Positions 22,638 to 42,589 of a stretch of DNA of 64,000 nucleotides are shown piece by piece. A program made the translations under genes and the position numbers. The notes under the pieces are model-generated. The model did not search any database, was not told where the DNA came from, and saw only the letters and a list, made by a program, of their open reading frames with translations. The DNA comes from Algoriphagus algorifonticola (GTDB lineage Bacteria; Bacteroidota; Bacteroidia; Cytophagales; Cyclobacteriaceae). The stretch covers positions 1 to 64,000 of the forward strand of contig NZ_VLOG01000020.1 of assembly GCF_007655305.1 (NCBI RefSeq). Reading direction: 5' to 3'. Every line of letters begins with the position of its first letter. Position 1 is the stretch's first letter.

Positions 22638-22683
22638 CAAAATTTCTGGAATAATTATTTCATCTGGAGAAAACCAAACAATA

Positions 22684-26995: not shown

Positions 26996-27014
26996 AGTTC
27001 AAAAATTAATTAAG

Positions 27015-27818: not shown

Positions 27819-28528
27819 CCTAAAATGTCTTTGATGGTTTTACTCTGTTTGATTAACACGTCAGTCGGAAACGGCTTGTCCGTTCCTACCAGCCCTTGCC
27901 ACAACTGCACGATATTGCAGTTTACAGGAGAGATGTCCCCGTTGAGGTGGCTGAAGTAGCTGTTCCAGAACGCCTGTTCCCATAGCTGTATGAATTGCTC
28001 CACGTTTTCCGCTTCGGAAAAATCCGTTTCCACCGTACCCATACACACCCCGCCATTATCATATACATTGAAAAATGGTGCATGGTATAATGCAGTTTCC
28101 AATTTCGGTTTGCCTTTGCTTTTCAATGCAAATAGTGACAGACTGCCCCTGTCTGCTTTCCACAACAATGCGGGTACGGATGCTATCCCGCAGGGGACGG
28201 TCAGACCTTCGGTGAACAGTAGGTTCACCAGTTGTGGAGGCGTGTACCAAACCGCATAGCCCCGATAGTGGTTGACGTGCAACAGCTTGTCGGGGAACAG
28301 CCCCGCACATCCGAGGTAGTCCGTCCGTACTTCCCTCGCGCTGTTCAGGCAATCAGCAAGGGCTATCGTTTCCCTGACACTCAATGGGTGGGCGTTAATG
28401 GGGCACCCCCGCCTGTCCATGTCCCAGGCTTCCACGTACACCTCTTCCCGTTCTGTTTGGGACTGGTAAATCACCAATGCCTTTTTCGGCAAGTAAACAG
28501 CATCCAGTTTGTCCGTTATATTCTTCAT
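27815..28528 (-). CDS. PRTRC system protein B
   Basis: A 237-aa protein of the PRTRC-B family, recognised by length, position and the segments YAVWYTPPQLVNLLF, VPALLWKADRGSLSLFALK and HAPFFNVYDNGGVCMGTV. PRTRC genes are a conserved set on plasmids and integrative elements whose biochemical roles are unknown. ATGA overlaps join it to the gene before and to ThiF after it, so the three are made together. Confidence 0.85.
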   Translation of the reverse strand: MKNITDKLDAVYLPKKALVIYQSQTEREEVYVEAWDMDRRGCPINAHPLSVRETIALADCLNSAREVRTDYLGCAGLFPDKLLHVNHYRGYAVWYTPPQLVNLLFTEGLTVPCGIASVPALLWKADRGSLSLFALKSKGKPKLETALYHAPFFNVYDNGGVCMGTVETDFSEAENVEQFIQLWEQAFWNSYFSHLNGDISPVNCNIVQLWQGLVGTDKPFPTDVLIKQSKTIKDILG

Positions 28529-29451
28529 AGCATCATTCTTAAAACGTCCGATAATTCATGTAGCAGGTCATATAGCCTTGTTTCAAAATCAAGGTCGTGC
28601 GTCGCCTCGCTTTGAGGTGTATCGAAATACTGTATGGCCATAGGTTCATCCGCTGCACAGCATTCATTCAGTTCGCTACAGACCATTTCCATCAGGTTTT
28701 GACCAAGCCAGCCCCGTTCATCCCAAATGAAGGAAAAGACCTGCTCCATTGTCATGCGGTATTCCTCGTTGGGGCGCAGCAGTTCAGGATGGATGTTATC
28801 CGCAAGGCTTCTTGTCGGATAATCCCGGTACAGCTTATACAGTTGTTCCGCTATATCATGGATGGCTAAAGATTGTTCACAACTTATAGGAAGTTGTTCT
28901 AATCTTTCCTCCCACGCATGGAGGTGGTAAGGGTGCTTAACTATTTTGTGCAGCCTGTCCCCAAAATAAATGGCAGCCTTTACCGAAGAGAGGCAAGCCG
29001 CATGTTCTTCATAATCCGTCCAGCCGTCATCCTCGGCCAGCCATTCCAGCATAGTTTGATAACGGCTGCCCGTGTAAGTCCACCCATTGAAAAATGGTAT
29101 GCCCACTACGTTGTGCAGGTAAGTGAAGACGGACAGCAGGAGGTTAATCTCCTGTTTGCGCCTCTTCCCGTGCATCCATTTCCACAACGGATAGACGGGC
29201 AGGAAGAACAGGGTGCTGCCCGTGGATGCTGACTTGGTGGTCGCCAGCCTTATCCGTCCCCTGTCTTCAACCAATAGCAGTTCCACCCACTTGTCCTTTT
29301 GAGCAAGTATTCCCGCTGCCTGTCGGTATAGGGCAGAGAGGTTCAGCGGGAATACCTCCCCCGATACGTCTATTGGCTCATAACCATACAGCGTTGCAAG
29401 ATTTTGAAACGAGGACAGCAGGAAGGCTTCGCCCTCCTTGCTGTAAGGCAA
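28525..29451 (-). CDS. PRTRC-cluster hypothetical protein (F-like position), start uncertain
   Basis: The body (LPYSKEGEAFLLSSF, then LLLSVFTYLHNVVGIPFF, WEERLEQLPISCEQSL, HDLDFETRLYDLLHEL) is clearly coding and sits where PRTRC F-like proteins occur, before protein B. The frame is open to 29733 (402 codons). Its first ~90 codons lie under another good-looking ORF (29487-29684) and the tail of PRTRC C, and read like out-of-frame sequence. The only in-frame ATG starts upstream of the body are at 29733 and 29607; a TTG at 29451, just past the small ORF, would give 308 aa. I chose the TTG with low certainty. Function unknown. Confidence 0.55.
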   Translation of the reverse strand: MPYSKEGEAFLLSSFQNLATLYGYEPIDVSGEVFPLNLSALYRQAAGILAQKDKWVELLLVEDRGRIRLATTKSASTGSTLFFLPVYPLWKWMHGKRRKQEINLLLSVFTYLHNVVGIPFFNGWTYTGSRYQTMLEWLAEDDGWTDYEEHAACLSSVKAAIYFGDRLHKIVKHPYHLHAWEERLEQLPISCEQSLAIHDIAEQLYKLYRDYPTRSLADNIHPELLRPNEEYRMTMEQVFSFIWDERGWLGQNLMEMVCSELNECCAADEPMAIQYFDTPQSEATHDLDFETRLYDLLHELSDVLRMML

Positions 29452-29486
29452 AGAGTTCTCGCCCCGAAGCGGCTGAAAGCGGTGGC

Positions 29487-29684
29487 TTAAAAAACCATGT
29501 CCACCATATTCAGGGGTGCGGACTTTTGCCTGTCCTTTCTTAGCTGTGCCGCATCGGGCAGCCTGTCCAGTTCCTTTGCGAATTGCCCTATGTACTGGTG
29601 TATATGCCATTGCTTTGAATAGTTTTCCGTTTCCCTGATTCGCCTCGCCCCTTTCGGGGTTGGGCGTTTTTGTTTCCCTGCCAT
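29487..29684 (-). CDS. Small basic hypothetical protein in PRTRC operon
   Basis: 65 aa, starting two bases after the PRTRC C stop and ending (VDMVF) just before the F-like body. Its composition is protein-like and strongly basic at the N-terminus (MAGKQKRPTPKGARRIRE), followed by an amphipathic helix (SKQWHIHQYIGQFAKELD). The competing longer frame through this stretch is poor in hydrophobic residues. It could be a separate gene or the true N-terminus of the F-like protein joined by a frameshift at GGTTTTTTAAG (about 29488-29498). Confidence 0.5.
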   Translation of the reverse strand: MAGKQKRPTPKGARRIRETENYSKQWHIHQYIGQFAKELDRLPDAAQLRKDRQKSAPLNMVDMVF

Positions 29685-29686
29685 GA

Positions 29687-29905
29687 CTATCCCTTTGTGC
29701 CGATGGTGGTTTTAAATTCAAACCATACCGCATCGTCCTGTATGGTGGGCCCCGCTATGGTGGCCGTTGTCAGCAGGGGGTATGAATTGCTGTAAAAATT
29801 CAGCACCGCTTCGGGGCTTAACCCGCCATCGGGGTCGGTAAGTATGATTTCCTGCCCTTTGTCCTCCATCCTGAATTTCCGTTCTAATTGTGTCGCCAGT
29901 AACAT
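29687..29905 (-). CDS. PRTRC system protein C
   Basis: A 72-aa protein of the PRTRC C family: LERKFRMEDKG, LTDPDGGLSPEAVLNFYSN and the closing VWFEFKTTIGTKG. The family looks like a small ubiquitin-like beta-grasp protein (my inference from length, the strand pattern and the ThiF partner). It lies 29 bases after PRTRC E in the same operon. Confidence 0.88.
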   Translation of the reverse strand: MLLATQLERKFRMEDKGQEIILTDPDGGLSPEAVLNFYSNSYPLLTTATIAGPTIQDDAVWFEFKTTIGTKG

Positions 29906-29934
29906 TTTCTAAAGTTTTTTAAGGTGAGTAATTA

Positions 29935-30504
29935 TCATTGTGCCGTCTGGGTGTCGGGTGCATCCGCCCTGAACAGGTCGGGTGCGAACTGCGCCGAAAG
30001 TTCCGACTTGCGCTTGCGAATGGTTTCTTCGTGTTCGGGATACTCCGATACATCGGGGACTTTCATCCACGCTTCACGGTGCTTTCCCTCCTTTTCGAGT
30101 TCTTCCGCTTTCTTCATCGCGTCGGCATATTTCTTCTCCTTCGCCTCCTTTTCTTTTTTCTCTTTATCGGCTTTTTCCTTTTCCATAGCCGATTGCTTTT
30201 TCGCTTCCTCCTGCGCCTGGAGGTAGGCTTCCATGTTCAGCATGAGTTCGGAGGTCTGTTGCAGGGGTGGGGTAATGCTGCTGAAAAAACCGTTGTCCAG
30301 TTCTTCTGCATTGCCTTTCAATACCAATGGCGGAATTACCTGTTTGGCGTTGTCCCCGCAACCTTTGTTATTGAGCAGTACCGATACAATCCAGTTACCG
30401 TCCGCCCCTGTCCTGATGGTAATTTGCAAATCACCCGCTATGCCCATTTGGGCTACCTGTTTGAAAAAATTAGTTTCCATTGTCTTATGAATTTGATTAG
30501 TCAT
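29935..30504 (-). CDS. PRTRC system protein E
   Basis: A 189-aa protein. Residues 9-90 (METNFFKQVAQMGIAGDLQI, then VSVLLNNKGCGDNAK, IPPLVLKGNAEELDNGFF) match PRTRC E. A highly charged coiled coil (~92-140, rich in KEKADKEKKEKEAKEK) and an acidic tail follow. The outer ATG (30504) overlaps the preceding stop as ATGA. The inner ATG at 30480 matches where homologues appear to begin. Either is possible. Confidence 0.85.
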   Translation of the reverse strand: MTNQIHKTMETNFFKQVAQMGIAGDLQITIRTGADGNWIVSVLLNNKGCGDNAKQVIPPLVLKGNAEELDNGFFSSITPPLQQTSELMLNMEAYLQAQEEAKKQSAMEKEKADKEKKEKEAKEKKYADAMKKAEELEKEGKHREAWMKVPDVSEYPEHEETIRKRKSELSAQFAPDLFRADAPDTQTAQ

Positions 30505-30890
30505 TGAATTTTATCCGTTTTGAACAGTACCCCTACCATATCTGTGAATGTTTGGTTATCGTGCTTCCGAACACCTGTATATAATTTGAGGCAATACTGC
30601 ATCAATAAGGCGTTCTGCCCGTCAAACAACTGGTCTGCGAACAACCTTGCCCAAGTGTGCAGTTGCTCCCCGTAGCGGTCAATCCTGCGCTCGGTGTTGT
30701 TCACCATTTGCAACCAGAAGTCAAACCCGATTATCCCATGTTCTCCCTTTGCCCGTTCTTCCGCTTCGTTCTCTTTTATGGTCAGGCATACCCGTTTTAC
30801 ATAGTCCGTGAATGCAGGTATTTCTTCGGGGAACAGCCCGTGCAGCAATTCCGCCTTGTCCCTGTTGGTCATTTTATCTATGGGTTTCAT
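30501..30890 (-). CDS. Conserved PRTRC-neighbourhood hypothetical protein
   Basis: A 129-aa soluble protein with no known domain. Helical segments include DKAELLHGLFPEEIPAFTDY and GFDFWLQMVNNTERRIDRYG, and the C-terminus (DMVGVLFKTDKIQ) is compact. It is coupled to PRTRC E by ATGA overlap. Genes of this size and position recur in Bacteroidetes PRTRC clusters, from memory. Function unknown. Confidence 0.72.
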   Translation of the reverse strand: MKPIDKMTNRDKAELLHGLFPEEIPAFTDYVKRVCLTIKENEAEERAKGEHGIIGFDFWLQMVNNTERRIDRYGEQLHTWARLFADQLFDGQNALLMQYCLKLYTGVRKHDNQTFTDMVGVLFKTDKIQ

Positions 30891-30955
30891 GTCTTTGTGT
30901 TTTGATGATTTTAAATGGGCAGCCCTGCCCGTAACAGGGCTACCCGTTGTTTATC

Positions 30956-32023
30956 CTAATTCCAGTTGAGTACAACCGCTCCTGATTTGGCGAAATCGGT
31001 GCAAAGGTTAAATGCAGCTTGTGTGCGGATTTGCGCCGTGCCTCCCAATAGGATGGATTTCAGCTTGGCTTCATCGTTTTTGTAATTGCGCACATTTTGG
31101 AAATAGCCCGTTACCGAATTATATGCGCCAAACAACGTCCCTTTGGTGGTGTCCAGTTGCTGTGTGGGGTTGGACATGCCGTATTCATATACCTTGTCCA
31201 CCATGTTGTTATATACCGTGGATAGTTCCTCGTCCCTGCCTGATTTCAGTTTGTCCAGCACCTCTTTATTGGGTATCATGGCAAGCTGTACCAGTTTCTT
31301 CACCTCGCTGTCCGTGATGCGTACTTTGGTCCATTGGTTAAAGATGCCTTCCATCTGCATGGACAATGTATTGCTCATGCCCATCAGCTTATGGGCTTCC
31401 TCCAACCGTTCCTTTGCGCCTGATGTATGGCGGATTTTAACCGTATTGCTTTTGCGGTGCATGGCTGCATTGAGCGTGTTGGCGCAAACGATACGTATCG
31501 GTGTGAATGCTGCGGTGATGCTCCCGCTGCCATCATGCGAAGTGGTCAGGAACAGGTATTGTTCGATGAGGTCGTCACTACCCACACGGATATAGCCCGG
31601 CAGTTTGGCAGTGATGAAAATCCGTTCACCGTTGCCCAACGCCCCTGCGGTTTCGTACATGATGCCGTCCCCACCGACAATGCTGTCAAAAAAGGAAAAG
31701 GCGTCACGGTTCTGTACCACATGGTAGTCCCTGCCTACTACACCGAGTACCGTATTGGTATCAGTGCGCATGGTGGCGTAGTAGTTAGGTACGGCCAGTT
31801 CCGCAACGCCCGTTACCAATCCATCGTTATCGGCTAAGAGCGTTTGCCCTTTCGTGAACAAGGGGGATTTGACCACCTCGTAGTCCAGTCCTGCATGTTG
31901 TATCGCTTCGGCGCTGGTGGGGTAGTCCTGTACGATTTGCCCCAACCCATGCCACGCTTTTTCCTTCACGCTGAAAAAGCTGTGCTTGCCTGTCGTTTCG
32001 TCTAAATGAATGTCATGTGCCAT
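30956..32023 (-). CDS. DUF932 (phage/plasmid-like TIGR03299) protein
   Basis: A 355-aa protein with the family opening (FSVKEKAWHGLGQIVQDYPT) and core (GVVGRDYHVVQNRDAFSFFD, FLTTSHDGSGSITAAFTPIR, IVCANTLNAA, LLGGTAQIRTQAAF). DUF932 proteins are typical of plasmids, phages and ICEs. Their activity is unknown, with replication or anti-defence roles proposed. Complete length. It is second in the operon after ssb. Confidence 0.9.
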   Translation of the reverse strand: MAHDIHLDETTGKHSFFSVKEKAWHGLGQIVQDYPTSAEAIQHAGLDYEVVKSPLFTKGQTLLADNDGLVTGVAELAVPNYYATMRTDTNTVLGVVGRDYHVVQNRDAFSFFDSIVGGDGIMYETAGALGNGERIFITAKLPGYIRVGSDDLIEQYLFLTTSHDGSGSITAAFTPIRIVCANTLNAAMHRKSNTVKIRHTSGAKERLEEAHKLMGMSNTLSMQMEGIFNQWTKVRITDSEVKKLVQLAMIPNKEVLDKLKSGRDEELSTVYNNMVDKVYEYGMSNPTQQLDTTKGTLFGAYNSVTGYFQNVRNYKNDEAKLKSILLGGTAQIRTQAAFNLCTDFAKSGAVVLNWN

Positions 32024-32070
32024 GATATATTGATTTTTGAATGTTTAAGAATAGATTTTGAAAATGTTGA

Positions 32071-32466
32071 TTAGAAAGGGAGGTCGTCCTTCTCATCCCC
32101 GTTACCGTTACTGCACTGGGTTACAACTTCTGTTTCCTCCACTGCACCTCCATTTCGCCTGGGCGTAGCCAGCAGCTTAATATTATTGGTGTGAAAGTTC
32201 AGCCGTCCGACTGCATTGCCATCGGTGTTGACATACGCATCCACCCCGATGCGCCCGTATAGTTCCACCAATGCGCCTTTTTTCAGCCATTGGACTACAG
32301 TTGTGTTGAGCCAATAGGCACAACTGACATAGTTGGTCACTTCCTTTTGCTCCCCCGCTTTGGTTTTGTAGCGGTCATTGATAGCGATAGAAAAGTTTAC
32401 TACTTTCCTGTCGTCCTTGAGTTCTGCGACATTTGCGTCTGCCGTCAATCTTCCTGTGATTACCAT
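32071..32466 (-). CDS. ssb: Single-stranded DNA-binding protein
   Basis: A 131-aa SSB. The start is at 32466 (MVITGRLTADANVAELKD), because the longer frame upstream lacks protein character. OB-fold segments are VVNFSIAINDRYKTK, NYVSCAYW, KGALVELYGRIGVDAY and LNFHTNNIKLL. The acidic tail ends DLPF, the tip that recruits partner proteins in bacterial SSBs. It is first in the element's replication/maintenance operon and likely serves its single-stranded transfer intermediate. Confidence 0.92.
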   Translation of the reverse strand: MVITGRLTADANVAELKDDRKVVNFSIAINDRYKTKAGEQKEVTNYVSCAYWLNTTVVQWLKKGALVELYGRIGVDAYVNTDGNAVGRLNFHTNNIKLLATPRRNGGAVEETEVVTQCSNGNGDEKDDLPF

Positions 32467-32978
32467 AACAAATCGTTTTAGAATGAATAAATGGTTCTTT
32501 ATGCTTCCTTTTTTCACCCCGTCAGCTCCCGAAAAGCAAATGTTTTTCAAAAGAAAAAACGGAAAAAAAGAAAGCACAGGAAGTGTGTCCGCTAAAGGCC
32601 AAAAGGAAACGGAATAAGTCCCGCAGGGTGGATAAGGCGGCGGCACAGAGCCTTATCCATTATGCCGTAGTCTTTTGGCAACCTTCAAAAAATCATGAGT
32701 AATGCGGACACAAACTTCGCTGCCCTTTTTGTCCGTTTCGATTGAAAAACTGGAAATCTGTAAAATTGCCTATCGCCCAGTTAATCGGAATAGGTTTAAT
32801 TTAGCGAATCGCAGGCTCATTGTAACAGATCTTGGAGTACTGGTATGGTCTGCAACCTATAAAAAAACACATTGCCATTTGACAATATGTGATAAAGGAG
32901 TAGTTTTAGTAATTTCTGACATATATCAGGATTTGGCATTATGAAAGAAAGACAAAATACAGAATTTTTAAAGAGACA
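32467..32978. other. Intergenic region between PRTRC operon and helicase
   Basis: The divergent promoters of ssb (minus) and the helicase (plus) should lie here. A perfect 10-bp inverted repeat sits at 32629-32659. An 80-codon plus frame (32702-32944) has no recognisable features, and I do not call it. Confidence 0.5.
32629..32659. promoter_or_regulatory. 10-bp inverted repeat
   Basis: TGGATAAGGC (32629-32638) and GCCTTATCCA (32650-32659) around an 11-base loop, upstream of ssb. No T-run follows, so an operator or replication-related site is more likely than a terminator. Confidence 0.4.
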
Positions 32979-35900
32979 ATGAATAAATACACGGCAAACT
33001 ATTCATATAGCAATCACAACTTTGTCATTCAAAATCTTACAGGACGGAGAATTAACAATGAATATTTGCCTGCAATTTGTATTGTCAAGAACATTTTACA
33101 AAGAGGTCGACCAACATTGCTTTCTAAGTTCCTTCAAGAAAAAATAGGGGCCATTCACAAAACAGACGAGTTCGAAAAATCTTATCCGTTAATCGACAAT
33201 GAAACTCCAAACTGGGAGAGAATCATCAGAGGTGATGTTAAGGGCAATTATTTTCCGGCCAAAAAATTCTTTGATGACCTGATTCCAAAATATCTATCGG
33301 ATTATTTATTTATTCAACAACTTCTAATTCCGGAAATTCCTGTAAATGAAATTACCCAAGTTGAGGTTGACGAGTTTGCAAATCAACAAGTAGATTTCTA
33401 CTTACCACAAGCATACCTCATTATTGAAATTGATGGTTCACAACATGACAGGAATGTCAATCAAGACAGACTGAGAGACCAGCACACAGCTAAGTACGGT
33501 ATCCAGACAATACGAATTAAAACCACCGACCTTGAAGCTGAAAACGAATCCTTCAAGAAAGCCATAACAGCTATTAAAGAGCGAATCGATAAAGTTATTC
33601 CCCGACAAGAAAAAAGACGGAAAAACGACTCCGTTTTCATTTCAATCAATGACTATAAGTCAGCTTTCGAAAATGGTGCTGACTTAACAAGCCCGTATTA
33701 CAAGGCAACGGCAGTAATGAGATTTCAGATACTCGTACTCGAATTGCTTGAAAGAGGATTGCTTGATTTCAATAAAGAATGGAAATTTGAATTACATACC
33801 TCAGACATCAACGATTTTGCTGATTTAGCCATTCAGGATTTATTACAATGGTTTAAGCCGATTTTTGAACTCCAAAAAATTAAATGGAACAAACCGAATT
33901 ATTCAATCAAGCCTGTTAATTCGCTACAAGAATTCAGCAATTCTTCCGATACGGTTAAAGTGGATTTTAGTCTATCAAAGAGGTACACGGACGAATTCCA
34001 GACCCATCTCAATATTCTTTTCTTGAGAACCGACTATTTGGATGAATACCTCTATTTCAAAAAGGGAGATTCAAGGGGTAATTTGAAGTTTAGTTCGTTC
34101 GAACCTTATGATTATTTCAAGGTTTCAGCCACTAAACCAGTAAAATACAAGTTGCAATTTGGCGGAACGGATTCAGACGAAAAACCCTTGCTCTTTCTCC
34201 TTCAAAATATTTTCCTTCAAGATGTTCCAAACTTGACGTTTAATGAAGGACAGTTACCAATCATTGCAAATATCCTCTCACGAAATGATACAATCGGACT
34301 TCTGCCCACAGGTAGCGGGAAATCTGTTTGCTATCAACTTGCGGCAATCCTGCAGCCAGCCATAAGTTTTGTGGTTTGCCCTATAAAATCCTTGATGTAC
34401 GACCAAAAGGCAGATTTGGATTTATGCCGTTTTACGAGAGTAAATCACATCACAAGTGATGATGATGGAGAGGATAAAGAAAAAATCCAAAATGAATTTG
34501 GCAATGGTAAGTACTTATTCATCTTCATTTCGCCAGAACGTTTTCAAATAAGGACTTTCAGACAATATTTCAGTGCGGTAAATAAGAAATTCAATATCGC
34601 CTATGCGGTAATAGATGAAGTTCATTGCCTATCAGAGTGGGGCCATGATTTCAGGACAGCTTATCTCAATCTTTCCAACACAATCCAAAAACTGTGCAGC
34701 GATTTCAATTTTTTAGGGCTTACGGCCACAGCTTCAATAAACGTTCTTAAGGATATTCAGGTGGAGTTCGGCATAAAACAAGATAATGTAAAAACACCAG
34801 TAGACTATACCAGAAAGGAACTGGACTTTGAAGTAGTTGACGATGGAAATGATAAAATAGGCACAATTAAGCAGCTACTTGGCGAACTGGATGAAACAGA
34901 GGAAATACTGGCTACAAAAGGAAACGATTCAAGATGCGGAATAATATTTACGCCAACAGTAAACGGCAAAAAAGGATGTTATCCTCTTTCACTTGTCCTA
35001 AGTGAGCATTTTCAAACTGAAATCAAGTACTATTCTGGATCCGTTCCCAAAACAGACGGCAGGCCGATAATGGGAGATAAAGAATATGATGAGTATAAGA
35101 AACAAGTTCAGCAAGAGTATAGAGCGAATGAGTTTACTCTCTTAACTGCCACAAAAGCATTTGGGATGGGCGTCAACAAGCCGAACATTCATTTTACCAT
35201 ACATTATGGAATTCCCGGTTCTATGGAAGCCCTTTATCAAGAAGGTGGCCGAGCCGGTAGAGATAAAGTGAAATTCAATGAACAACAAGCTAAGTGTTTA
35301 GTGCTACTCTCCAAGTCTACAAAACCCAAACAGTTTGTTGACCAGTTCTGGATTCGTGAAACTCAGCTATCTAAGCTAAATGAGTTAAGAACGCAGATTG
35401 AGGGAGACCTGTACACTAACTTTTTTCTTTTCTCATTGGGGCTGGATGTTATCAAGGATGAATTTGAAACGATAAAAAAATTGCACGAGCGATATTCTGT
35501 TTCCAACGAAAAGAATGTACGAGTTGAGGGGAATGAAATTGGTGTCAATAAAGCGAAAGCGGAAAAAGCTATCTATCGACTTAGTCAGCTTAGAATAATT
35601 GAGGACTGGACAATCAATAATTTTTTCGGTGGTGGTGAATTTGAAGTTGATTACTCCGAATTTGATGCTGCTTCTATCAAAAATGCACTTCTCAAAACAG
35701 TTAACAAGTACGACCCTGATTTCTCTTTTGACAGCATTAATTCAGAATCGAAATATTCTACGTATCGAAAAATACTCAATGCACCCGAGGGATATTCCGA
35801 CTTTGATAAGAACATACTCATACTTCTTCAGTGGTCATACGACAATTTTGCCTATAACAGAAGGCAATCGCTGAAGAACATCTATGAAAACTGCTGTGAG

Positions 35901-36491
35901 TTTTCAGAAGGAAATATCACGAAACAAGAATTCAAAGCCCGTTTGGAGAATTACTTCAAATTCAATCAATCCAGCTACGTACTTCAACATATTGCAGAAA
36001 ACCCGAAGGACATTGAAAGATGGTTTGAGGTATTTTATCAGGTAGATAAGAATATTGTTACGGACAAGTTACTCACGGGTAGACAAAGAGAAGCTCTGCG
36101 AGATAACCTAAGCCGCTTTCTTGAAAGCTACATGTACAATCCTGGCCTTGATTTGATTAGCGGACTATTACGTTTGTGGTTAGACGACTATGAAAATATT
36201 GATGGAAGAAAACGACTTGAAAGCTCTTTAGACGAAATACAGCATTTTGAGGAAAGACAGATTGCCTTTATAGTTACTCAAATACTTAAAATTGGAAAGG
36301 AACTAACAAGCAAGAACAAGAATTTTTTGGCTGAATCACTTTACAAGTTCTTCAATGATGAATCGTTCCTTTATCGAATTCAAAAAGAACTTGGGGATAC
36401 CTTTTCAATGGCAGTAATAATTGAGGATGCGAATAAAAAACTAAAGACAATTAACAAAAGAATATATGGCGGACTTAGAAAAGTTGGATAA
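32979..36491 (+). CDS. Nuclease-RecQ-like helicase fusion protein
   Basis: An 1170-aa protein. Residues ~118-205 form a DUF559/Vsr-like PD-(D/E)XK nuclease: QQVDFYLP (Asp139), IIEIDGSQHD (Glu150, Asp152), then YGIQTIRIKTTD. Residues ~425-800 form a RecQ-family helicase: LLPTGSGKSVCYQL (Walker A 443-449), IDEVHCLSEWGHDFR (546-560), TATKAFGMGVNKPNIHF and YQEGGRAGRD (motif VI). The C-terminal ~370 residues are helical and unassigned; an RQC or HRDC domain is not evident. It should act on DNA, most likely in defence. The 3' end overlaps the next gene by 26 bases. The base composition is AT-rich, unlike the PRTRC genes next to it, which suggests separate acquisition. Confidence 0.78.
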   Translation: MNKYTANYSYSNHNFVIQNLTGRRINNEYLPAICIVKNILQRGRPTLLSKFLQEKIGAIHKTDEFEKSYPLIDNETPNWERIIRGDVKGNYFPAKKFFDDLIPKYLSDYLFIQQLLIPEIPVNEITQVEVDEFANQQVDFYLPQAYLIIEIDGSQHDRNVNQDRLRDQHTAKYGIQTIRIKTTDLEAENESFKKAITAIKERIDKVIPRQEKRRKNDSVFISINDYKSAFENGADLTSPYYKATAVMRFQILVLELLERGLLDFNKEWKFELHTSDINDFADLAIQDLLQWFKPIFELQKIKWNKPNYSIKPVNSLQEFSNSSDTVKVDFSLSKRYTDEFQTHLNILFLRTDYLDEYLYFKKGDSRGNLKFSSFEPYDYFKVSATKPVKYKLQFGGTDSDEKPLLFLLQNIFLQDVPNLTFNEGQLPIIANILSRNDTIGLLPTGSGKSVCYQLAAILQPAISFVVCPIKSLMYDQKADLDLCRFTRVNHITSDDDGEDKEKIQNEFGNGKYLFIFISPERFQIRTFRQYFSAVNKKFNIAYAVIDEVHCLSEWGHDFRTAYLNLSNTIQKLCSDFNFLGLTATASINVLKDIQVEFGIKQDNVKTPVDYTRKELDFEVVDDGNDKIGTIKQLLGELDETEEILATKGNDSRCGIIFTPTVNGKKGCYPLSLVLSEHFQTEIKYYSGSVPKTDGRPIMGDKEYDEYKKQVQQEYRANEFTLLTATKAFGMGVNKPNIHFTIHYGIPGSMEALYQEGGRAGRDKVKFNEQQAKCLVLLSKSTKPKQFVDQFWIRETQLSKLNELRTQIEGDLYTNFFLFSLGLDVIKDEFETIKKLHERYSVSNEKNVRVEGNEIGVNKAKAEKAIYRLSQLRIIEDWTINNFFGGGEFEVDYSEFDAASIKNALLKTVNKYDPDFSFDSINSESKYSTYRKILNAPEGYSDFDKNILILLQWSYDNFAYNRRQSLKNIYENCCEFSEGNITKQEFKARLENYFKFNQSSYVLQHIAENPKDIERWFEVFYQVDKNIVTDKLLTGRQREALRDNLSRFLESYMYNPGLDLISGLLRLWLDDYENIDGRKRLESSLDEIQHFEERQIAFIVTQILKIGKELTSKNKNFLAESLYKFFNDESFLYRIQKELGDTFSMAVIIEDANKKLKTINKRIYGGLRKVG

Positions 36492-36963
36492 TGCTATCAA
36501 AGAACTTGAAAAGCAGTCAAACGACTTGAAAGACTTCAATTCAGTTTACGCTGAAATCGCCCAGCTAAAACAGGACTTATTGGAAAATCTGAAGTTACTA
36601 CAGGAGAACAACAAGGGGTTGTCGGATATTTCAAAGGAGGTAGAAAAGCGGCTTGAAGAATCCCAGAAGAAGATTGATGAAATCTATAAAGACAACAAGG
36701 CATTTCAGAAAGAACTGGACTCGTCTATAGCTTCCCGCCTTGACAAGCACAAATCAGACATTCAGGTTGAGATTCGAAATGAGGGCACTCAGATACAACG
36801 AGCCTTCGAAACGACATTAAATTCTAGTTTCAATCAATTGGAACTCAAGGTGAAGGAAGCTTTTGAACGACAGACAAAACAGCTAAATACGTTGAGAATA
36901 TTGACTTTTATCCTGATTGCTATTTCAATTGGGTTGGCAGTCGGATTCTTTGTAATAAAATAA
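36466..36963 (+). CDS. Coiled-coil protein with C-terminal membrane anchor
   Basis: A 165-aa protein starting inside the helicase gene (26-base overlap), so the two are co-translated. Residues 1-140 are a long coiled coil (LEKLDNAIKELEKQSNDLKD, LKQDLLENLKLLQENNKGL). Residues ~144-164 are one transmembrane helix (ILTFILIAISIGLAVGFFVI), so it is a tail-anchored protein with the coil in the cytoplasm. No family recognised. It probably partners the helicase, tethering or sensing at the membrane. Confidence 0.7.
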   Translation: MADLEKLDNAIKELEKQSNDLKDFNSVYAEIAQLKQDLLENLKLLQENNKGLSDISKEVEKRLEESQKKIDEIYKDNKAFQKELDSSIASRLDKHKSDIQVEIRNEGTQIQRAFETTLNSSFNQLELKVKEAFERQTKQLNTLRILTFILIAISIGLAVGFFVIK

Positions 36964-37465
36964 CCAGCCCAAGCAGTCACATATTGGCTTGGAGAGCTCA
37001 AGCCAAAAACTTGGCAGGGTGTATGAGAGAAGATTAGCCCACTCTGTAATTGTGATATGAGCCAATGAAAGTTCAGGGCCTGTAAACTTAATATAGTTTG
37101 AATAAAGTAAAATCATTTCGAAATTGAGGAAAAATAAAATTTTACCAGCTACTAAACCCGTTAGGGATTGAAACGAAAATCCTCTGAAGGAGATTGAAGT
37201 GAAAAGCCCGGCCACAGGAACGGCCAATCTGATTTCATGTTTTTATCATTTGATTTTCAATTACGATATAAAATGCCTTGACAATCATCCCAATTACTTG
37301 TTAAATTATTTATTATCAACACTTTACTCGTAATCACCTAAGCTCATCTACCCCAAACAAGATTAATTTTTAGAATCCAATATTTACCAGTTTTTGAGAT
37401 TACTGGCATTTATTTGATTTCTAATATTCACCACATTTTCTTAACTTTGGTAAAAATTGGATAAA
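36964..37465. other. Intergenic region with inverted repeat and AT-rich motif repeats
   Basis: It carries an 8-bp perfect inverted repeat (36984-37006, TTGGCTTG/CAAGCCAA), two copies of a GATTGAAxyGAAAAxCC motif 26 bases apart (37166-37182 and 37192-37208) and an AT-rich promoter stretch before the toxin-antitoxin genes. No gene seen. Confidence 0.5.
36984..37006. terminator. Hairpin after the helicase/coiled-coil operon
   Basis: TTGGCTTG and CAAGCCAA with a 7-base loop, 21 bases after the coiled-coil gene's stop codon. No T-run follows on the plus strand, so termination is only suggested by position. Confidence 0.35.
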
Positions 37466-38230
37466 ATGCCTAAAATCATAGAGAATAAGCTTATAGAAGA
37501 GTTTAAGAACAAAGAGTCCTTCAGCCGCGAGGAACTTTTCGATTTCTACCGCTCATTCGAACCTGACCTGAAGGAAGGAACACTAGGTTGGCGAATCTAT
37601 GACCTGAAAAACAAAAACATTATCAAGCCACTTAAAAGAGGATTGTATGTAATTTCATATAAGCCTCCTTATAAACCTGAACTTTCCCGTGATCTATTAA
37701 AAATTGCACATCGAATCAACGATGTGTTTAAGGAGATTAGATATTGTATTTGGGAAACAGGATGGCTCAATGAATTTTCCCAACACCAATCAGGCAAACG
37801 AATGATCCTGGTTGAAATAGAGAAGGACTTTACGGAATCACTCTATTTCGAGTTGAAAACCTCCTCAAAACGGGAGATATTTTTAAACCCTGACAGCAAT
37901 ACTATTGACTTTTATATTGCTGAAAGTAATTATCCGGTTGTCATAAAGAAGCTTACCAGCCGCTCTCCTATTACCACCAGGACAAAGGAAAAAGTAAAAC
38001 TTTACACCCCCCTCCTTGAAAAAATCCTGGTGGACTTGTTTGCTGACGATAAAATCTTTTACCATCTCCAGGGAGCTGAACTAACGCATATTTATGAGCA
38101 TGCAATAAACCACTACACCATCAATTTCACAAAACTCTTCAGTTATGCCAAGCGAAGGGACAAAGAACCAGAAATAAAGCAGTTTATGATTAACCACATG
38201 TCTCACCTTGTAAATGAAATCATAGAATGA
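37466..38230 (+). CDS. DUF6577/AbiEi-like antitoxin of a type IV toxin-antitoxin pair
   Basis: About 254 aa. I use the ATG at 37466 (MPKIIENK) instead of the TTG at 37457. The N-terminal ~75 residues form a winged helix (FSREELFDFYRSF, GTLGWRIYDLKNKNIIKPLK), the usual AbiEi antitoxin/repressor architecture. The remainder is the long DUF6577-like body (VDLFADDKIFYHLQGAELTH, in two parts). It should repress its own promoter and counteract the nucleotidyltransferase toxin. It overlaps the toxin gene by ATGA. Confidence 0.75.
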   Translation: MPKIIENKLIEEFKNKESFSREELFDFYRSFEPDLKEGTLGWRIYDLKNKNIIKPLKRGLYVISYKPPYKPELSRDLLKIAHRINDVFKEIRYCIWETGWLNEFSQHQSGKRMILVEIEKDFTESLYFELKTSSKREIFLNPDSNTIDFYIAESNYPVVIKKLTSRSPITTRTKEKVKLYTPLLEKILVDLFADDKIFYHLQGAELTHIYEHAINHYTINFTKLFSYAKRRDKEPEIKQFMINHMSHLVNEIIE

Positions 38231-39339
38231 TCAAGGACCACTGTTTCACAGAAGAATGGCTTGAGGCCTTTCGGAAGCAAAAAAATCACAGCCGCATTGA
38301 CAAAATCATTCTTGAAAAAATGATTTATGCGCTCCACCTGCTGGAGGAACTTCGGGCCCATGGGCTTGAATTCGTTTTTAAGGGAGGCACCAGCCTGGTC
38401 CTGTTATTGGAACAGGACAATCGTTTTTCTATTGACATTGATATCATCTGCACAGCAGGCAGGGAAGAATTGGAATCCATATTCGGAAAAATTGTAGAGG
38501 TATCCAGGTTTACCGGCTTTGAAATAGATACACACCGAAGTTACTTACCCGGTGTACCCAAAGCACATTATAAATTTTCATTTGAAACTAATCAACAGGG
38601 TTCAGGCACAATTCTATTAGACATCCTCTTTGAAAAACAACTCTATCCGGAACTTATTGAAAAACCTATAAACACAAAATGGATAGAAGTAGAAGATGAA
38701 CATTCTGTCGCACTGCCATCGGTTGACTCTATAACAGGCGATAAACTCACTGCTTTTGCGCCAAATACAATTGGCATTCCCTATTTTAAAGGCAGGGACC
38801 GCCAGCCATTTTCCATGGAAATATGCAAACAGCTCTTTGACTTGAGTAGATTATTTGAGCAAATCCGGAACATGGAGACGGTGGCTGCAAGTTTCAAAGC
38901 TTTTTCGGAACAGGAAATAGCCTATCGAAAAAATGGCCAGGAACAATTTGACTTGACTCCGGAAGACGTATTACAAGACACTCTGGATACCTGCCTGATC
39001 CTGGCAAAGCGTGGAACAGGTTCAACTGGGGAGCAGGAAAAATTTGTTGAATTACAAAGAGGTATCCGGGCCTTTGGCACAGGATTCTTAATGTCAGGAA
39101 CATTCCGTATTGACGATGCCATTCCCGCATCGGCAAGGATTGCTTACCTCGCTGCTAAACTAAAGGTTAGTGACCTGACCCCAATTGATTATTACAACGG
39201 GCAGGATGTAAGTAAACTGACTATTGAAGACCCGGATTGGAATTTCTTAAATCGTCTTAAACGTCAGCCTGACAAATCCTCTTTCTATTACTGGTACCAT
39301 ACAATCAGGCTGCTTACAGGCTCAAAAAACAATCCTTAA
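38227..39339 (+). CDS. AbiEii/AbiGii-type nucleotidyltransferase toxin
   Basis: A 370-aa protein. The nucleotidyltransferase motif is GGTSLVLLLEQDNRFSIDID (residues ~55-74), i.e. GG-T/S plus the D-x-D of the AbiEii/DUF1814 family. In characterised members the toxin modifies tRNA or other targets and stops growth during infection. It is the second gene of the pair. At 370 aa it is somewhat longer than typical (~300), with an extra C-terminal ~80 residues (RIAYLAAKLKVSDLTPIDYY) of unknown role. Confidence 0.82.
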   Translation: MIKDHCFTEEWLEAFRKQKNHSRIDKIILEKMIYALHLLEELRAHGLEFVFKGGTSLVLLLEQDNRFSIDIDIICTAGREELESIFGKIVEVSRFTGFEIDTHRSYLPGVPKAHYKFSFETNQQGSGTILLDILFEKQLYPELIEKPINTKWIEVEDEHSVALPSVDSITGDKLTAFAPNTIGIPYFKGRDRQPFSMEICKQLFDLSRLFEQIRNMETVAASFKAFSEQEIAYRKNGQEQFDLTPEDVLQDTLDTCLILAKRGTGSTGEQEKFVELQRGIRAFGTGFLMSGTFRIDDAIPASARIAYLAAKLKVSDLTPIDYYNGQDVSKLTIEDPDWNFLNRLKRQPDKSSFYYWYHTIRLLTGSKNNP

Positions 39340-39426
39340 GTGGAGTAGACACAATAGAGATGAATAAGCATAGTGTAACTATTTTGACATGCAAAAATTG
39401 AAATTCTTTGACTCAAATAAAGCTTA

Positions 39427-40482
39427 ATGGGAGACACTGACTTATTGACCTACGAGCAAGTCATTACCTCGCTCAGGAAAAAAAAACGGAAGAAACATTT
39501 ATTGCTGGGCAACGGCTTTAGCATGTCCTATGATTCCGGGATATTTTCGTATAATGCCCTAAGTAAGTTTTTGGAGAATTTAGAGAACGATACTCTTCAA
39601 AAGCTTTTCGGGATAATTAAGACAAGTAATTTTGAGTTGCTGATGGAGCAGCTCGAAAATGTTGCTAAAATCGCCGAGGTTTTTGGCGCCGAAAAAGGAG
39701 TAGTCGACAAGATTCACCAGGCTACCACAACATTAAAAGAAAGCTTGATTGAAGCCATCAAAGAGCTCCATCCTGAACATGTCTTTTCCATTTCAGAAGA
39801 GAAAAGCCAGGCTTGCGCGGATTTTCTTAATGAGTATCTTTCTCAAGAGGGCAATATTTTTACTACCAATTATGATTTGCTGCTCTATTGGGTTTTAATG
39901 AGAAACCAGTTTGATCGGATTGGAGACGGTTTTGGAAGAGAAACCGACGAGACAGGCGAATTCATAGCTCCTGAAGACAGAATGTGGTCTGAACTCCGGT
40001 GGGGCAAAAACAAGGATACACAATCAATTTTTTACGTTCACGGAGCACTCCATATTTTCGATGCCGGGATAGATATCGTTAAAGAGGAATACAGCAATGA
40101 ACATGTTTTATTGGAAAATGTCAAAGCCAGAATGGCAAGAAAGGAATACCCAATCTTTGTAACGGCCGGGAACGGAGAAGAAAAACTAAGTCATATCCGG
40201 CATAACAGGTACCTGTCTTTCTGCTACGACACGCTCTCAAATCTTGAAGGCTCCCTGATTTGCTTTGGCTTTGGTTTTGGCCTCTATGATGAACACATCA
40301 TCGCCGCTATCAATAAAGCGGCAAAGAAAAAGAAAGACGGTGATGGTAAATGGCATATGTTGAATAGCATATACATCGGAGTTTATTCCGATTCAGACTT
40401 GAAACGCCTGAAAACTATTGAAAATAAGTTTAAGTGTTATGTCCGGTATTTCGACGCTAAAACGGTAAAAGTTTGGGGTTAG
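39427..40482 (+). CDS. SIR2-like DUF4917 protein
   Basis: A 351-aa protein. Residues 24-32 (HLLLGNGFS) form the SIR2-like nucleotide-binding loop. GNIFTTNYD (142-150) and YVHGALH (His205 in the H-G motif) match the SIR2/SIR2-2 core as found in DUF4917. Most relatives lie in defence islands, where SIR2 domains deplete NAD+ on phage sensing. The residues that would make it catalytic are present. An 87-base gap separates it from the toxin gene upstream, and only 40 bases separate it from the AlbA_2 protein downstream, so SIR2 plus AlbA_2 probably form one module. Confidence 0.75.
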   Translation: MGDTDLLTYEQVITSLRKKKRKKHLLLGNGFSMSYDSGIFSYNALSKFLENLENDTLQKLFGIIKTSNFELLMEQLENVAKIAEVFGAEKGVVDKIHQATTTLKESLIEAIKELHPEHVFSISEEKSQACADFLNEYLSQEGNIFTTNYDLLLYWVLMRNQFDRIGDGFGRETDETGEFIAPEDRMWSELRWGKNKDTQSIFYVHGALHIFDAGIDIVKEEYSNEHVLLENVKARMARKEYPIFVTAGNGEEKLSHIRHNRYLSFCYDTLSNLEGSLICFGFGFGLYDEHIIAAINKAAKKKKDGDGKWHMLNSIYIGVYSDSDLKRLKTIENKFKCYVRYFDAKTVKVWG

Positions 40483-40522
40483 GCTTTATACTCGACTGCA
40501 GTAATTGCCAAAAAAACAAAAC

Positions 40523-41656
40523 ATGGCTCAACAGCTTGAATTTATCATCAGGGAATTGATCAGCAAAAACAGGGAAGGGAGTTTCTGGGACTTTAAATCT
40601 GAACCGCACGACAATAATGCTTCCCTCCTCCATGACATCCTTTGCCTGGCTAATTCGCTCCATAAAGGAGACAAATACCTTATCATCGGTATAGAGGAAA
40701 GTCAAGAAGGAACCTTGGTAAAAGGATTGGCCCAAAATCAGCCCAACAGGAAAAAGCAATCCAACTACATTGATTTCCTTAGAAGCAAAAGTTTTTCGGG
40801 AGGCATACGGCCTGAGATTGAACTACAGACACTCAAAATTGAAGGCAGCGAAATAGATGTACTGATAATTCTTGACCGGCCATTTAAGCCCTATACACTG
40901 ACTGAGGATTACAAGGACAGAGGAATAACAGTCAAAGCCCATCATATCTATACCAGAATAAATGATACTAATACCCCGCTTAACGCCTCCGCAGACCTAT
41001 GGATTGTGGAGAAAATGTGGCGGGAAAAGTTCGGAATTGATCTTAACTCGCTTGACAGGTTGAAGGCCTTGCTCAGGGAGCCTGGAAACTGGTCTATGGA
41101 TATTGGCAATAGTAATCATTTTTACCACCTGATATATCCTGAATACTCCATCATCCTGAGCGAACCGGAAAGGTTTTATGAGCCCTATAGCTACTTCTAC
41201 ACCAATGAATCCTCATTTCTGGGAACAGCCAAATTCATGTACCATACCACACCTATTGCGGAATTGGAGTATATGTATTGCGATGAAATGCGGATCATGC
41301 TTCCTGTGCCAAAAACCGGCTACCTTGATTTAGAGATGGGAGACCAATGGTACTATCACTACATATTGGATTCCTTGAATGGGCAGTTTTTATATCTTTT
41401 GACGAAGGGTGAGCTTTCCCTGGAGTCGAGAGGAATGTCCGCACCCTTTATCATTTTCAAGGATGAGGCAGAAAAGCAGCATTTCGAAGTTTTTTTAACT
41501 GACAACCAACCCCTTCTAGAACAAACTGTTGTTGGATTTGCCGGAGAATTTGCCTCAAAAAACATCAAGAGGGTAGGGAAAGAATTTGGTGTTGACCCAG
41601 CTTTCGCGGATAAAGCATACCAGGTATTTATTAGGTGGAAAACAAAGCTAATGTAG
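40523..41656 (+). CDS. AlbA_2/Schlafen-like protein
   Basis: About 377 aa from the ATG at 40523 (the TTG at 40505 is unlikely). The N-terminal ~120 residues are an AlbA_2 (Schlafen-type) domain: GSFWDFKSEPH, LLHDILCLANSLHKGDKYLI (the first conserved motif with its acidic residue), then IIGIEES. Such domains bind nucleic acid or nucleotide and act as RNases in some Schlafen relatives. The C-terminal half (YHLIYPEYSIILSEPERFYE, YWYHY-like aromatics) is unassigned. It is next to the SIR2-like gene with a 40-base gap. Confidence 0.7.
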   Translation: MAQQLEFIIRELISKNREGSFWDFKSEPHDNNASLLHDILCLANSLHKGDKYLIIGIEESQEGTLVKGLAQNQPNRKKQSNYIDFLRSKSFSGGIRPEIELQTLKIEGSEIDVLIILDRPFKPYTLTEDYKDRGITVKAHHIYTRINDTNTPLNASADLWIVEKMWREKFGIDLNSLDRLKALLREPGNWSMDIGNSNHFYHLIYPEYSIILSEPERFYEPYSYFYTNESSFLGTAKFMYHTTPIAELEYMYCDEMRIMLPVPKTGYLDLEMGDQWYYHYILDSLNGQFLYLLTKGELSLESRGMSAPFIIFKDEAEKQHFEVFLTDNQPLLEQTVVGFAGEFASKNIKRVGKEFGVDPAFADKAYQVFIRWKTKLM

Positions 41657-41801
41657 GCACAAAAGTACTGGGAGAATGGGCAAAATTCTTATTTGCCATC
41701 GTTATGAAATTGATGGATAAGGTTAAACCTATAACTACCTGTTTTGACAATCAAGGCTCCCTTAAATTGAATTCAATTATTTTTGATCACAAATTTGAGT
41801 T

Positions 41802-42479
41802 ATGATTTATATAATACCGACAAAAAGAGGCGTAGGCTGTGAGTTATGGGGCACTTATGAAGACCTGTTTAATTTATACGAAGTAATTGGTAAATTTTGG
41901 AACGATCAAAACCAGGCGAACATAAAAGGCCTGGAAAACAGGGATCAATTAATTAGTGGGTTCTCCTATGAGATCAGAAAAGCAAAAGATGGAAGTCGTT
42001 TAACCAGAACCCATAGCCATTTCTTCCATGAGTCTATTCCCTATTTTGGGGTTCAGATTTCCTGGGTTCATTTTCTCTTTTCGCTTACCGCCATTAAGTT
42101 CAATATGAGAATTTATGAAACCAATAAATTTGATGTATCCACCATTCTTCAATTAGAGTTTTGGCTTGAACGTGCCATGGTGAGCTTTGACCAAACAGGT
42201 GGAGAAAAACTTGCCGGTTATATTTCAGACGGAATTTATGCTGGCAATCCATATCTGTACCAGTTCATGAGAAGTATCAACCTGGATTTTTTCAAGCTTG
42301 GAGGAGGGAAAATCGCCTTCAGAAAACTCCCGCAATTGATGCAGAGAAGTGTATATCTGACTGAGGAGTATAATGAGTACCTCTCTTTTCTAACCGGAGA
42401 AGCCAAAAGATTGAATTGTAAAATTGATGACCTTGAATTAAGTGACGAGGAGTTTGACTATGAAGGTATTAAATGGTAA
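41802..42479 (+). CDS. Hypothetical protein (unknown, island gene)
   Basis: A 225-aa soluble protein, possibly of DUF6904 type (from memory, not verified). Features are GCELWGTYEDLFNLYEVIGK, then IPYFGVQISWVHFLFSLTAI and a helical C-terminus with an acidic tail (ELSDEEFDYEGIKW). No catalytic motif. It stands 145 bases after the AlbA_2 gene. It may be an independent cargo gene or part of the preceding module. Confidence 0.55.
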   Translation: MIYIIPTKRGVGCELWGTYEDLFNLYEVIGKFWNDQNQANIKGLENRDQLISGFSYEIRKAKDGSRLTRTHSHFFHESIPYFGVQISWVHFLFSLTAIKFNMRIYETNKFDVSTILQLEFWLERAMVSFDQTGGEKLAGYISDGIYAGNPYLYQFMRSINLDFFKLGGGKIAFRKLPQLMQRSVYLTEEYNEYLSFLTGEAKRLNCKIDDLELSDEEFDYEGIKW

Positions 42480-42589
42480 AAAACATAAGTCTGTCATTCG
42501 GTTGTTCCCCAAATCGTCTGTAAAGTTTGTGTAAAAAGCAATACGATACGCGTGATTCGTGAAAAATCAAATTAAGAAAACTAAAGATT

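Follow-up and report, generated by a model that had tools for sequence, protein, structure and literature searches.

Overlapping genes for a nuclease–RecQ-type helicase protein and a coiled-coil, predicted tail-anchored protein resemble an undescribed two-part defence system

The described systems closest to the locus analysed here are Hachiman, Dpd, RqlHI/PsyrTA and ShosTA, each of which resembles it in part. Hachiman is a two-gene helicase and nuclease system in which HamA has the nuclease role, and to our knowledge its definition includes no tail-anchored partner. Dpd is a 7-deazaguanine DNA modification system. RqlHI/PsyrTA has a RecQ core, and the RqlHI paper, whose main text contains 0 occurrences of “transmembrane”, describes RqlH as genotoxic without RqlI (PMC4670107). 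ShosTA and a DprA-PRTase system of P2-like phages are described in PMC9122126. The original prediction was of a candidate new defence module, no described system with the pair of genes presented here being known to it. None was found in the literature searched, which took in few subscription papers and few bioRxiv preprints; the words helicase, DprA and DUF559 have 0 occurrences in the main text of the DefensePredictor paper (PMC13092281). The pair looks like an undescribed two-part defence system.

The genes were found on the forward strand of a 64,000-nucleotide stretch of Algoriphagus algorifonticola DNA (GCF_007655305.1, contig NZ_VLOG01000020.1, positions 1–64,000), hereafter the window. 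The large gene (32979..36491, +) encodes a 1170-aa protein with the layout DUF559 nuclease, alpha/beta linker, RecQ core, winged helix and helical C-terminus, and its AlphaFold2 model has a pLDDT of 89.6 and a pTM of 0.86. The predicted union of a DUF559/PD-(D/E)XK nuclease and a RecQ-type core in one protein is borne out by the ORF, Pfam and NCBIfam, which agree. Pfam, a PDB profile and conserved residues all point to a PD-(D/E)XK-type (DUF559) nuclease domain at residues ~93–200 (33255..33578, +): Pfam DUF559 matches residues 137–197 (7.4e-8, 32.7 bits vs a gathering score of 20.6), PDB 3hrl matches residues 133–207 (E 2e-7), and DUF559 is matched by 36/36 homologues at E≤0.1. Across 36 aligned rows, E119, D139, E150 and H156 occur in 36/36 and D152 in 35/36, and the protein can be classed, from its sequence, as a DUF559 nuclease. 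Between nuclease and helicase, the AlphaFold2 secondary structure adds an alpha/beta region (residues ~220–376, 33636..34106, +) to the earlier domain description; it has no Pfam match and no assigned family.

The helicase core (residues 424–762, 34248..35264, +) is defined by Pfam, NCBIfam and structural matches. Pfam finds DEAD at 424–591 (1.2e-18) and Helicase_C at 649–762 (7.2e-11), NCBIfam recQ_fam is passed narrowly (224.9 bits vs a cut-off of 219.8), and a PDB profile search finds RECQL1, RecQ and BLM with E values of at most 1e-73. The core matches BLM, RECQL5, RECQL4, WRN and E. coli RecQ structurally at Z ~24–28, and DEAD-box helicases at Z ~23. Across the 36 aligned members its Walker/ATPase motif residues vary little or not at all, and the presence of Walker A, DEVH/DEAH and motif VI places it in the RecQ helicase family in the broad sense. 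Housekeeping RecQ shares this core (Z 24.7 to E. coli RecQ, 1oyy), but the protein reaches only 220.6 bits vs 640.2 for the NCBIfam recQ equivalog TIGR01389, and a 100/100 branch in the tree separates seven housekeeping RecQs from the family; on these grounds that identity is rejected. RQC, RecQ zinc-binding and HRDC are absent from the best 25 of 28 Pfam families in 36 members at E≤0.1.

Most of the C-terminus is, as predicted, an unassigned part of some 370 residues, the exception being a winged-helix-like segment (residues ~824–895, 35448..35663, +) in the C-terminal AlphaFold2 model, for which VIA-align gives weak matches to winged-helix regulators (Z ~5–6). A helical region follows in the AlphaFold2 models (residues ~941–1169, 35799..36485, +). 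The C-terminus partly aligns structurally with RecQ chains, up to residue ~995. Taken alone, it has no Foldseek match at E≤0.001, and its VIA-align rows are weak winged-helix and helical-repeat matches (Z up to 6.4). Because RECQL4 is absent among these rows, a special likeness to it stays a lead: the RECQL4 row for the protein (5lst, Z 27.1, rmsd 3.4) aligns 485 residues, and other RecQ rows ~380–425.

The small gene (36466..36963, +) encodes 165 amino acids and begins, as predicted, 26 bases inside the large one, the two ORFs overlapping at 36466..36491 (+); among homologous loci, an overlap of 23 or 26 nt is seen most often. The heptad test and hydropathy agree with the predicted anatomy of a coiled coil plus one C-terminal membrane helix. 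Heptad periodicity in the coiled-coil segment (residues 1–143, 36466..36894, +), which has 0 Pro and 2 Gly, was equalled in 1/2000 shuffles. The one hydrophobic stretch, a single C-terminal transmembrane helix (residues 145–163, 36898..36954, +), ends two residues before the C-terminus and forms a predicted tail anchor. An alignment of 51 small proteins contains no second hydrophobic stretch; the tail beyond the helix is 0–11 aa long (median 3), and the better-conserved positions include the N-terminal ~35 residues. In the heptad test, 37 of 50 tail-anchored homologues gave p≤0.05 and 13 lay above. Pfam, PADLOC and NCBIfam return low-scoring coiled-coil look-alikes alone for the small protein, and the RefSeq records examined call it “hypothetical”.

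A genome scan for large-gene homologues gave 73 loci, including duplicates on contigs that are identical as judged by length and position (L088 = L042, L097 = L044, L099 = L041, L122 = L043) and one match of 18 residues alone (L133). The isolates carrying them belong to Bacteroidota, Bacillota and Pseudomonadota; loci from any further phylum are from metagenome bins, where the contig may be misplaced. Large genes are full-length in 57 loci, four of which have no usable downstream ORF: in L069, L110 and L128 the contig ends 156–483 nt after the large gene, and in L106, with 2.1 kb left downstream, the alignment covers residues 1–734 alone. A tail-anchored protein lies downstream in 50 of the other 53, and the same anatomy occurs in 6/458 other ORFs of 140–400 aa in these loci. 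The association of the two genes exceeds chance, and the second gene is conserved. The exceptions are L129 and L130, whose downstream coiled coil ends in a short basic tail, and L071, where the large gene stops prematurely and a coiled-coil frame follows; none of the three showed a membrane helix. Among more distant homologues (23–27% identity), the tail-anchored partner is present in 10/10 outside one clade of seven loci (L045–L051), in which another gene lies downstream. In the distant members L052 and L058 the partner is retained while the nuclease motif is absent in the alignment, and another (L053) has Tyr at the nuclease His position, so the nuclease is not essential across the whole superfamily.

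The family is rare and mobile. It is carried by 7/5,426 E. coli genomes, and several copies are plasmid-borne. The operon is near-identical between an Advenella chromosome and Klebsiella/Raoultella plasmids (DprA 99.7% and HAD-PRTase 98.7% identical), and Dyadobacter and Chryseobacterium copies are almost the same in the tree; these near-identities indicate horizontal transfer. No full-length match was found in the phage records and viral contigs searched, although some defence genes do have viral copies.

In the window, the pair lies among Hachiman, AbiE-type and SIR2 genes, all of which were located where the original prediction had them as neighbours: Hachiman HamB/HamA at 22876–26357, 6.6 kb upstream, an AbiE-type pair at 37457–39339 and the SIR2-like PDC-S21 at 39427–40482, with a Schlafen-type PDC-S50 at 40505–41656. 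A TraG-type coupling protein is also encoded in the window, and the pair adjoins SSB, ThiF and DUF932 genes. The flanks of the 57 loci contain components of at least eight known defence system types (type I RM, type II methyltransferase, type IV restriction, type I-B CRISPR, BREX, Kiwa, Zorya and reverse transcriptases). In twenty control stretches the matches were to type I RM components, one IIG type and one PD-Lambda-1 type, the remainder being taken for housekeeping look-alikes. Counted as components, not whole systems, defence genes are more abundant in the flanks than in the control stretches, which come from one order while the tested loci come from several phyla. The scan covered 373 of 383 flank proteins picked and 275/293 control proteins, and one of the three flank lists at E≤1e-55 holds the best 25 families only; presumed operon DprA/HAD-PRTase pieces (except the L108 DprA) and two proteins >1,500 aa were left out of the flank scan. 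The E. coli cassette sits between type I RM and an MZA system in the two chromosomes examined. This company argues for the defence role predicted from context, and the family is not found mainly outside defence islands.

One Proteobacteria/Chlorobiota clade, with members on Klebsiella and E. coli plasmids, extends the pair with DprA and HAD-PRTase, a subtype absent from the original prediction. The HAD-PRTase is fused to the large protein and the DprA gene is adjacent. Such a DprA-like neighbour occurs in L069, L100, L103, L105, L107, L108, L110 and L124, and in L035, where the ShosT model matches the N-terminus (3.7e-8) and the ShosA model the upstream DprA (1.9e-65). Both Shos parts are present in the first eight of these loci, and most scan loci and the window are without them; DprA-bearing loci with enough sequence also carry the coiled-coil gene. 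At the level of sequence, the subtype ties the nuclease-helicase family to ShosTA and RqlHI.

The window pair itself differs from each of these systems. RqlHI/PsyrTA resembles the family in its RecQ core (the PADLOC PsyrT model matches window residues 413–776 at 3.9e-59) and in the PRTase and DprA of the one clade. However, the window protein carries a DUF559 nuclease at its N-terminus and is paired with a conserved coiled-coil membrane partner; it has no PRTase match in Pfam or PADLOC and no DprA ORF beside the pair, and with both missing it is not PsyrTA/RqlHI. The ShosT-like PRTase part and preceding ShosA-like DprA of the subtype recall ShosTA, whereas the core here is a nuclease-helicase plus a coiled-coil anchor, and the window, without ShosT and ShosA parts, does not encode ShosTA. 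In Hachiman, HamB matches other helicase models and HamA is a separate protein.

We give about an even chance to the pair being a membrane-tethered, DNA-targeting two-gene immune module. The C-terminal helix would insert the small protein in the inner membrane in vivo, leaving the coiled coil on the cytoplasmic side as an oligomeric scaffold, and the conserved N-terminal part of the coil would hold the large protein in a complex. The large protein may recognise a DNA structure (an ssDNA end, fork or flap) from the entry or replication of phage or other foreign DNA; the RecQ motor would unwind this substrate and the DUF559 nuclease would cut it, giving an anti-phage effect. In the Proteobacteria/Chlorobiota subtype, DprA may be added to the core as an ssDNA sensor or brake, and the HAD-PRTase domain as a toxic effector, as in RqlH/ShosT. 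Counting against the module are the loci without a nuclease motif (L052/L058), without a helix (L129/L130) or with another gene (L045–L051), and the absence of a full-length match in the phage records and viral contigs searched. More tentatively, and with rather less than even confidence, we propose that the pair is a new immune system spanning phyla, whose coiled-coil, tail-anchored scaffold would hold a RecQ helicase-nuclease at the inner membrane to meet entering DNA, with DprA and HAD-PRTase as an evolutionary plug-in.

In an alternative, abortive-infection arrangement, the helicase-nuclease might be a sensor and the tail-anchored protein, released or oligomerised, might disrupt the inner membrane and kill the infected cell. 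Abortive defence commonly uses membrane effectors, and the single-helix partner is retained in L052 and L058 despite loss of the nuclease motif, which would fit this. Against it, E119, D139, E150 and H156 are invariant in 36/36 closer-family members, a short basic tail replaces the helix in L129 and L130, and a single helix with a tail of 0–11 residues would suit an anchor better than a channel; we think abortive infection unlikely. Somewhat less likely still is a toxin–antitoxin arrangement of the RqlHI/PsyrTA/ShosTA kind, with the large protein as a DNA-damaging toxin and the small one as a restraint in the place of the DprA antitoxin. The genotoxicity of RqlH without RqlI (PMC4670107) and the ShosT-like HAD-PRTase and ShosA-like DprA in one clade's operon speak for it; the window version, however, lacks both, and the single ShosA-model match in its genome is on a contig (C67) other than the pair's and is probably the housekeeping DprA. 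Moreover, the coiled-coil gene is no simple DprA replacement, since both occur together in loci with enough sequence.

Lowest in our estimation is a non-phage role in mobile-element DNA maintenance, anti-plasmid or anti-conjugation activity, or membrane-tethered stress repair. The TraG-type coupling protein, the SSB, ThiF and DUF932 neighbours and the plasmid-borne copies are consistent with it, but accessory immunity better suits the phage-defence company and the rare, scattered spread (as in E. coli); the pair may still defend against plasmids. If the immune module is confirmed, the helicase-nuclease class gains a defence system whose membrane-anchored partner is conserved. This system occurs in isolates from three phyla and in metagenome bins from others and is already on Klebsiella and E. 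coli plasmids, and there would be a direct handle on the coupling of DprA/PRTase toxin modules (RqlHI, ShosTA) to DNA sensing. A dedicated coiled-coil anchor tethering a DNA-processing motor to the membrane would, if true, be a separate defence architecture, and the RqlHI/ShosTA toxin-like systems would be linked to nuclease-based immunity.

Confirmation would also correct the PADLOC label DpdF, which now hides the family. PADLOC already models the helicase under this label, a point absent from the original prediction: PDLC02868 “DpdF” covers window residues 74–1086 (8e-115). However, the window protein scores 135.6 bits vs a cut-off of 550 with NCBIfam DpdF, and DpdE, the only other Dpd component sought, exceeds its cut-off neither in the window's genome nor in those of L129, L130, L061 and L103. 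We reject Dpd membership because of this score and the lack of a passing DpdE match in these genomes, and take the label in PADLOC to be an artefact of naming. A DpdE match below cut-off (151 bits) lies on a different contig of the L130 genome, and the best matches of the PADLOC DpdF model over ten genomes are L129 (1441 bits) and L130 (788 bits).

The window holds a large gene (32979-36491, forward strand, 1170 aa) whose 3′ end overlaps a small gene (36466-36963, forward strand, 165 aa). The 26-nt overlap in the original prediction is what the ORF reading gives (36466 vs 36491), and the second gene proved to be conserved in other genomes. We searched 84,980 species genomes (those of genome_contigs) with the N-terminal 415 residues of the large protein and recovered at least 73 loci (L133 on an 18-residue match only), a lower bound because the scan used short patterns. 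A large ORF of ≥1,090 aa was present in 57 loci and the downstream ORF was readable in 53 of those. In 50 of the 53, the large gene is followed by a tail-anchored protein of 157-379 aa with a C-terminal membrane helix, whereas among the remaining ORFs of 140-400 aa at these loci 6 of 458 share this anatomy. The commonest overlaps between the two genes are 23 and 26 nt long.

The partner is also present at 10/10 loci of more distant homologues with 23-27% identity (L039, L040, L052-L054, L056-L060), L053 having Tyr in place of the motif His. Of the three exceptions among the 53, two (L129 and L130) have downstream coiled coils (12350-12853 and 12296-12727; heptad p 0.02 and 0.005) without a membrane helix, which is replaced by a basic C-terminal tail (MPRTLLGRKGR, MPRSIFGKRGAKKR; common pattern MPR[ST][LI][LF]G[RK][KR]G) that may be another route of membrane or DNA contact. 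In the third, a Paludibacter locus (L071, 8437-12900), an in-frame stop cuts the large gene short close to its 3′ end and a coiled-coil frame comes next, seen without its C-terminus; the large gene also carries an N-terminal extension that is HEAT-repeat-like by eye and lacks HAD-PRTase similarity. Seven divergent full-length relatives (L045-L051; 21-23% identity by BLAST) are followed not by the coiled-coil protein but by a gene encoding approximately 130-154 aa (weak DUF7793 match in the one scanned), possibly a third arrangement.

Pfam assigns residues 137-197 of the large protein to DUF559 (above the gathering score), 424-591 to DEAD and 649-762 to Helicase_C. All three occur in 36/36 members; RQC, RecQ zinc-binding and HRDC were not among the best 25 of 28 Pfam families in these members. 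The protein narrowly exceeds the NCBIfam RecQ-family cut-off (224.9 vs 219.8 bits). In its AlphaFold2 model (36-sequence alignment, mean pLDDT 89.6, pTM 0.86), residues ~391-995 superpose on RecQ helicases, among them BLM (7aud; Z 28.2, 395 aligned, rmsd 2.8) and E. coli RecQ (1oyy; Z 24.7); DEAD-box helicases reach Z ~23. The family profile matches an endonuclease-like protein (PDB 3hrl) at residues 133-207. E119, D139, E150, H156, K448, D546 and E547 are identical in 36/36 aligned rows, and D152 is kept in 35/36. Modelled alone (pLDDT 88.6), the C-terminus combines a segment resembling a winged helix with a long helical one, and for the latter structure searches gave no convincing match.

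The heptad signal of small-protein residues 1-143 was equalled in 1/2000 shuffles, marking a coiled coil, and one hydrophobic helix lies at residues 145-163. Across 51 aligned proteins (this one and 50 homologues), we found no second hydrophobic stretch, 0-11 residues (median 3) C-terminal to the helix and a median of 3 Lys/Arg ahead of it. This would be expected of a tail-anchored protein whose coil lies in the cytoplasm. The N-terminal 35 residues are among the better-conserved parts of the alignment.

The module is very probably defensive in the broad sense. For its mechanism, we give roughly even chances to membrane-tethered DNA attack: the coiled coil would oligomerise at the membrane, its N-terminus would hold the helicase-nuclease, the RecQ motor would load onto a DNA structure specific to infection, and cutting would fall to the DUF559 site. 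Abortive infection, with the tail-anchored small protein as membrane effector, seems unlikely. The invariant nuclease and ATPase sites favour catalysis, and the basic tail of the L129/L130 partners argues for an anchor rather than a pore. The distant branch supplies the opposite argument, since L052 and L058 are missing the nuclease motif and retain the anchor partner.

In the literature searched, we found no paper on DUF559 and RecQ together and no description of the gene pair, and the RefSeq records examined call the small protein "hypothetical". The parts are of known kinds (helicase-nuclease defence); as far as we could see, their conserved association with a coiled-coil protein anchored in the membrane is undescribed.

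The predicted setting among Hachiman, AbiE-type and SIR2 genes was recovered with Pfam and PADLOC. Hachiman is at 22876-26357, and downstream of the pair, within 37457-43192, are an AbiE-type pair (DUF6577/AbiEi and AbiEii), a SIR2-like PDC-S21 (DUF4917), a Schlafen-type PDC-S50 (AlbA_2), a DUF6904 gene and a 200-aa protein without a family. A 556-aa protein 1.9 kb from Hachiman (19354-21024; DUF6035, DUF7830, DUF7829 and CoiA-type nuclease matches) is possibly another defence gene. On the reverse strand, 15344-32646 encodes a TraG/YWFCY-type coupling protein and, adjoining the pair, ThiF, DUF932 and SSB proteins, with Hachiman in between; this is probably a conjugative or mobilisable element flanking the defence cluster. 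Shortly 3′ of the pair is a lone sequence, ACTAAACCCGTTAGGGATTGAAAC (37151-37174), which we take to resemble a CRISPR repeat; a genome-wide search for the 18-base core (37157-37174), with ≤2 mismatches allowed, found this one copy.

We compared 373 proteins flanking the 57 loci with PADLOC (E≤1e-55; best 25 of 41 families for one test set, all families for the others and the control), and since the matching member was not identified per hit, this is a census of components rather than counted systems. Matches included type I restriction enzymes, Cas3/Cas5/Cas7 (type I-B models), type II methyltransferases, BrxA, BrxB, BrxC, BrxL and PglZ of BREX, KwaA, KwaB, ZorB, reverse transcriptases, one type IV restriction enzyme and PDC candidates. 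The control (275 proteins, 20 stretches) came from genomes of the window's own order and the test loci from more phyla; it matched type I RM components (REase_I, Specificity_I, MTase_I), one IIG-type, one PD-Lambda-1-type, and DndA/SspA and DpdF, the last two taken for housekeeping look-alikes. The two E. coli chromosomal cassettes that we examined are flanked by a type I RM system on one side and the MZA anti-phage system on the other.

PADLOC's DpdF model (PDLC02868) fits members of this family, its top scores in ten genomes falling on family genes (L129, 1441 bits; L130, 788 bits), but none of five genomes checked has a DpdE over cut-off (the L130 genome has a 151-bit sub-cut-off match on another contig). 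The window protein scores 135.6 bits against the NCBIfam DpdF cut-off of 550, and with no DpdE over cut-off we rejected Dpd membership. We take the PDLC02868 label for a clustering artefact among RecQ-like proteins, one likely to mislead annotation of family members.

In eight loci (L069, L100, L103, L105, L107, L108, L110, L124) and in plasmid copies from Klebsiella, Raoultella and E. coli, the large protein is extended at its N-terminus by ~390 residues that include HAD and PRTase parts (the L108 gene is split within them), and a DprA gene lies upstream. In L035, the extension matches HAD_2 (3.6e-18) and PADLOC ShosT (3.7e-8) and the DprA matches ShosA (1.9e-65); the eight loci's DprAs are 46-99.7% identical to it (L069 in part only). 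PRTase and DprA link this clade to RqlHI: according to PMC4670107, RqlH, which joins RecQ and PRTase, is genotoxic when the DprA-like RqlI does not restrain it. Passages elsewhere state that a DprA plus PRTase system shields E. coli against T7 and lambda (PMC9122126), and that ShosTA and Hachiman are among systems responding to phage SSB or DNA intermediates (the AbpAB study, PMC10732053). A tree built from 83 helicase cores has this clade (labelled to include L109, whose contig ends before the HAD-PRTase part) as one side of a 98/96 branch and separates seven housekeeping RecQs by a 100/100 branch; with a midpoint root and several long branches, the tree gives no direction of gain vs loss.

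Close homologues (44-49% identity, one degraded) occur in 5/291 genomes of the same order, counting the window's own. Matches with ≥80% coverage were found in 8/72,556 plasmid records and in none of 50,697 phage records, and a pattern search of IMG/VR found none. Near-identical DprA-type operons on an Advenella chromosome (L103) and Klebsiella/Raoultella plasmids (L035; DprA 99.7%, HAD-PRTase 98.7%) imply that the module moves between families, and their likeness points to a recent transfer. The three-gene cassette is present in 7/5,426 complete E. coli genomes (3 chromosomal), and two of the plasmid copies are disrupted by IS elements.
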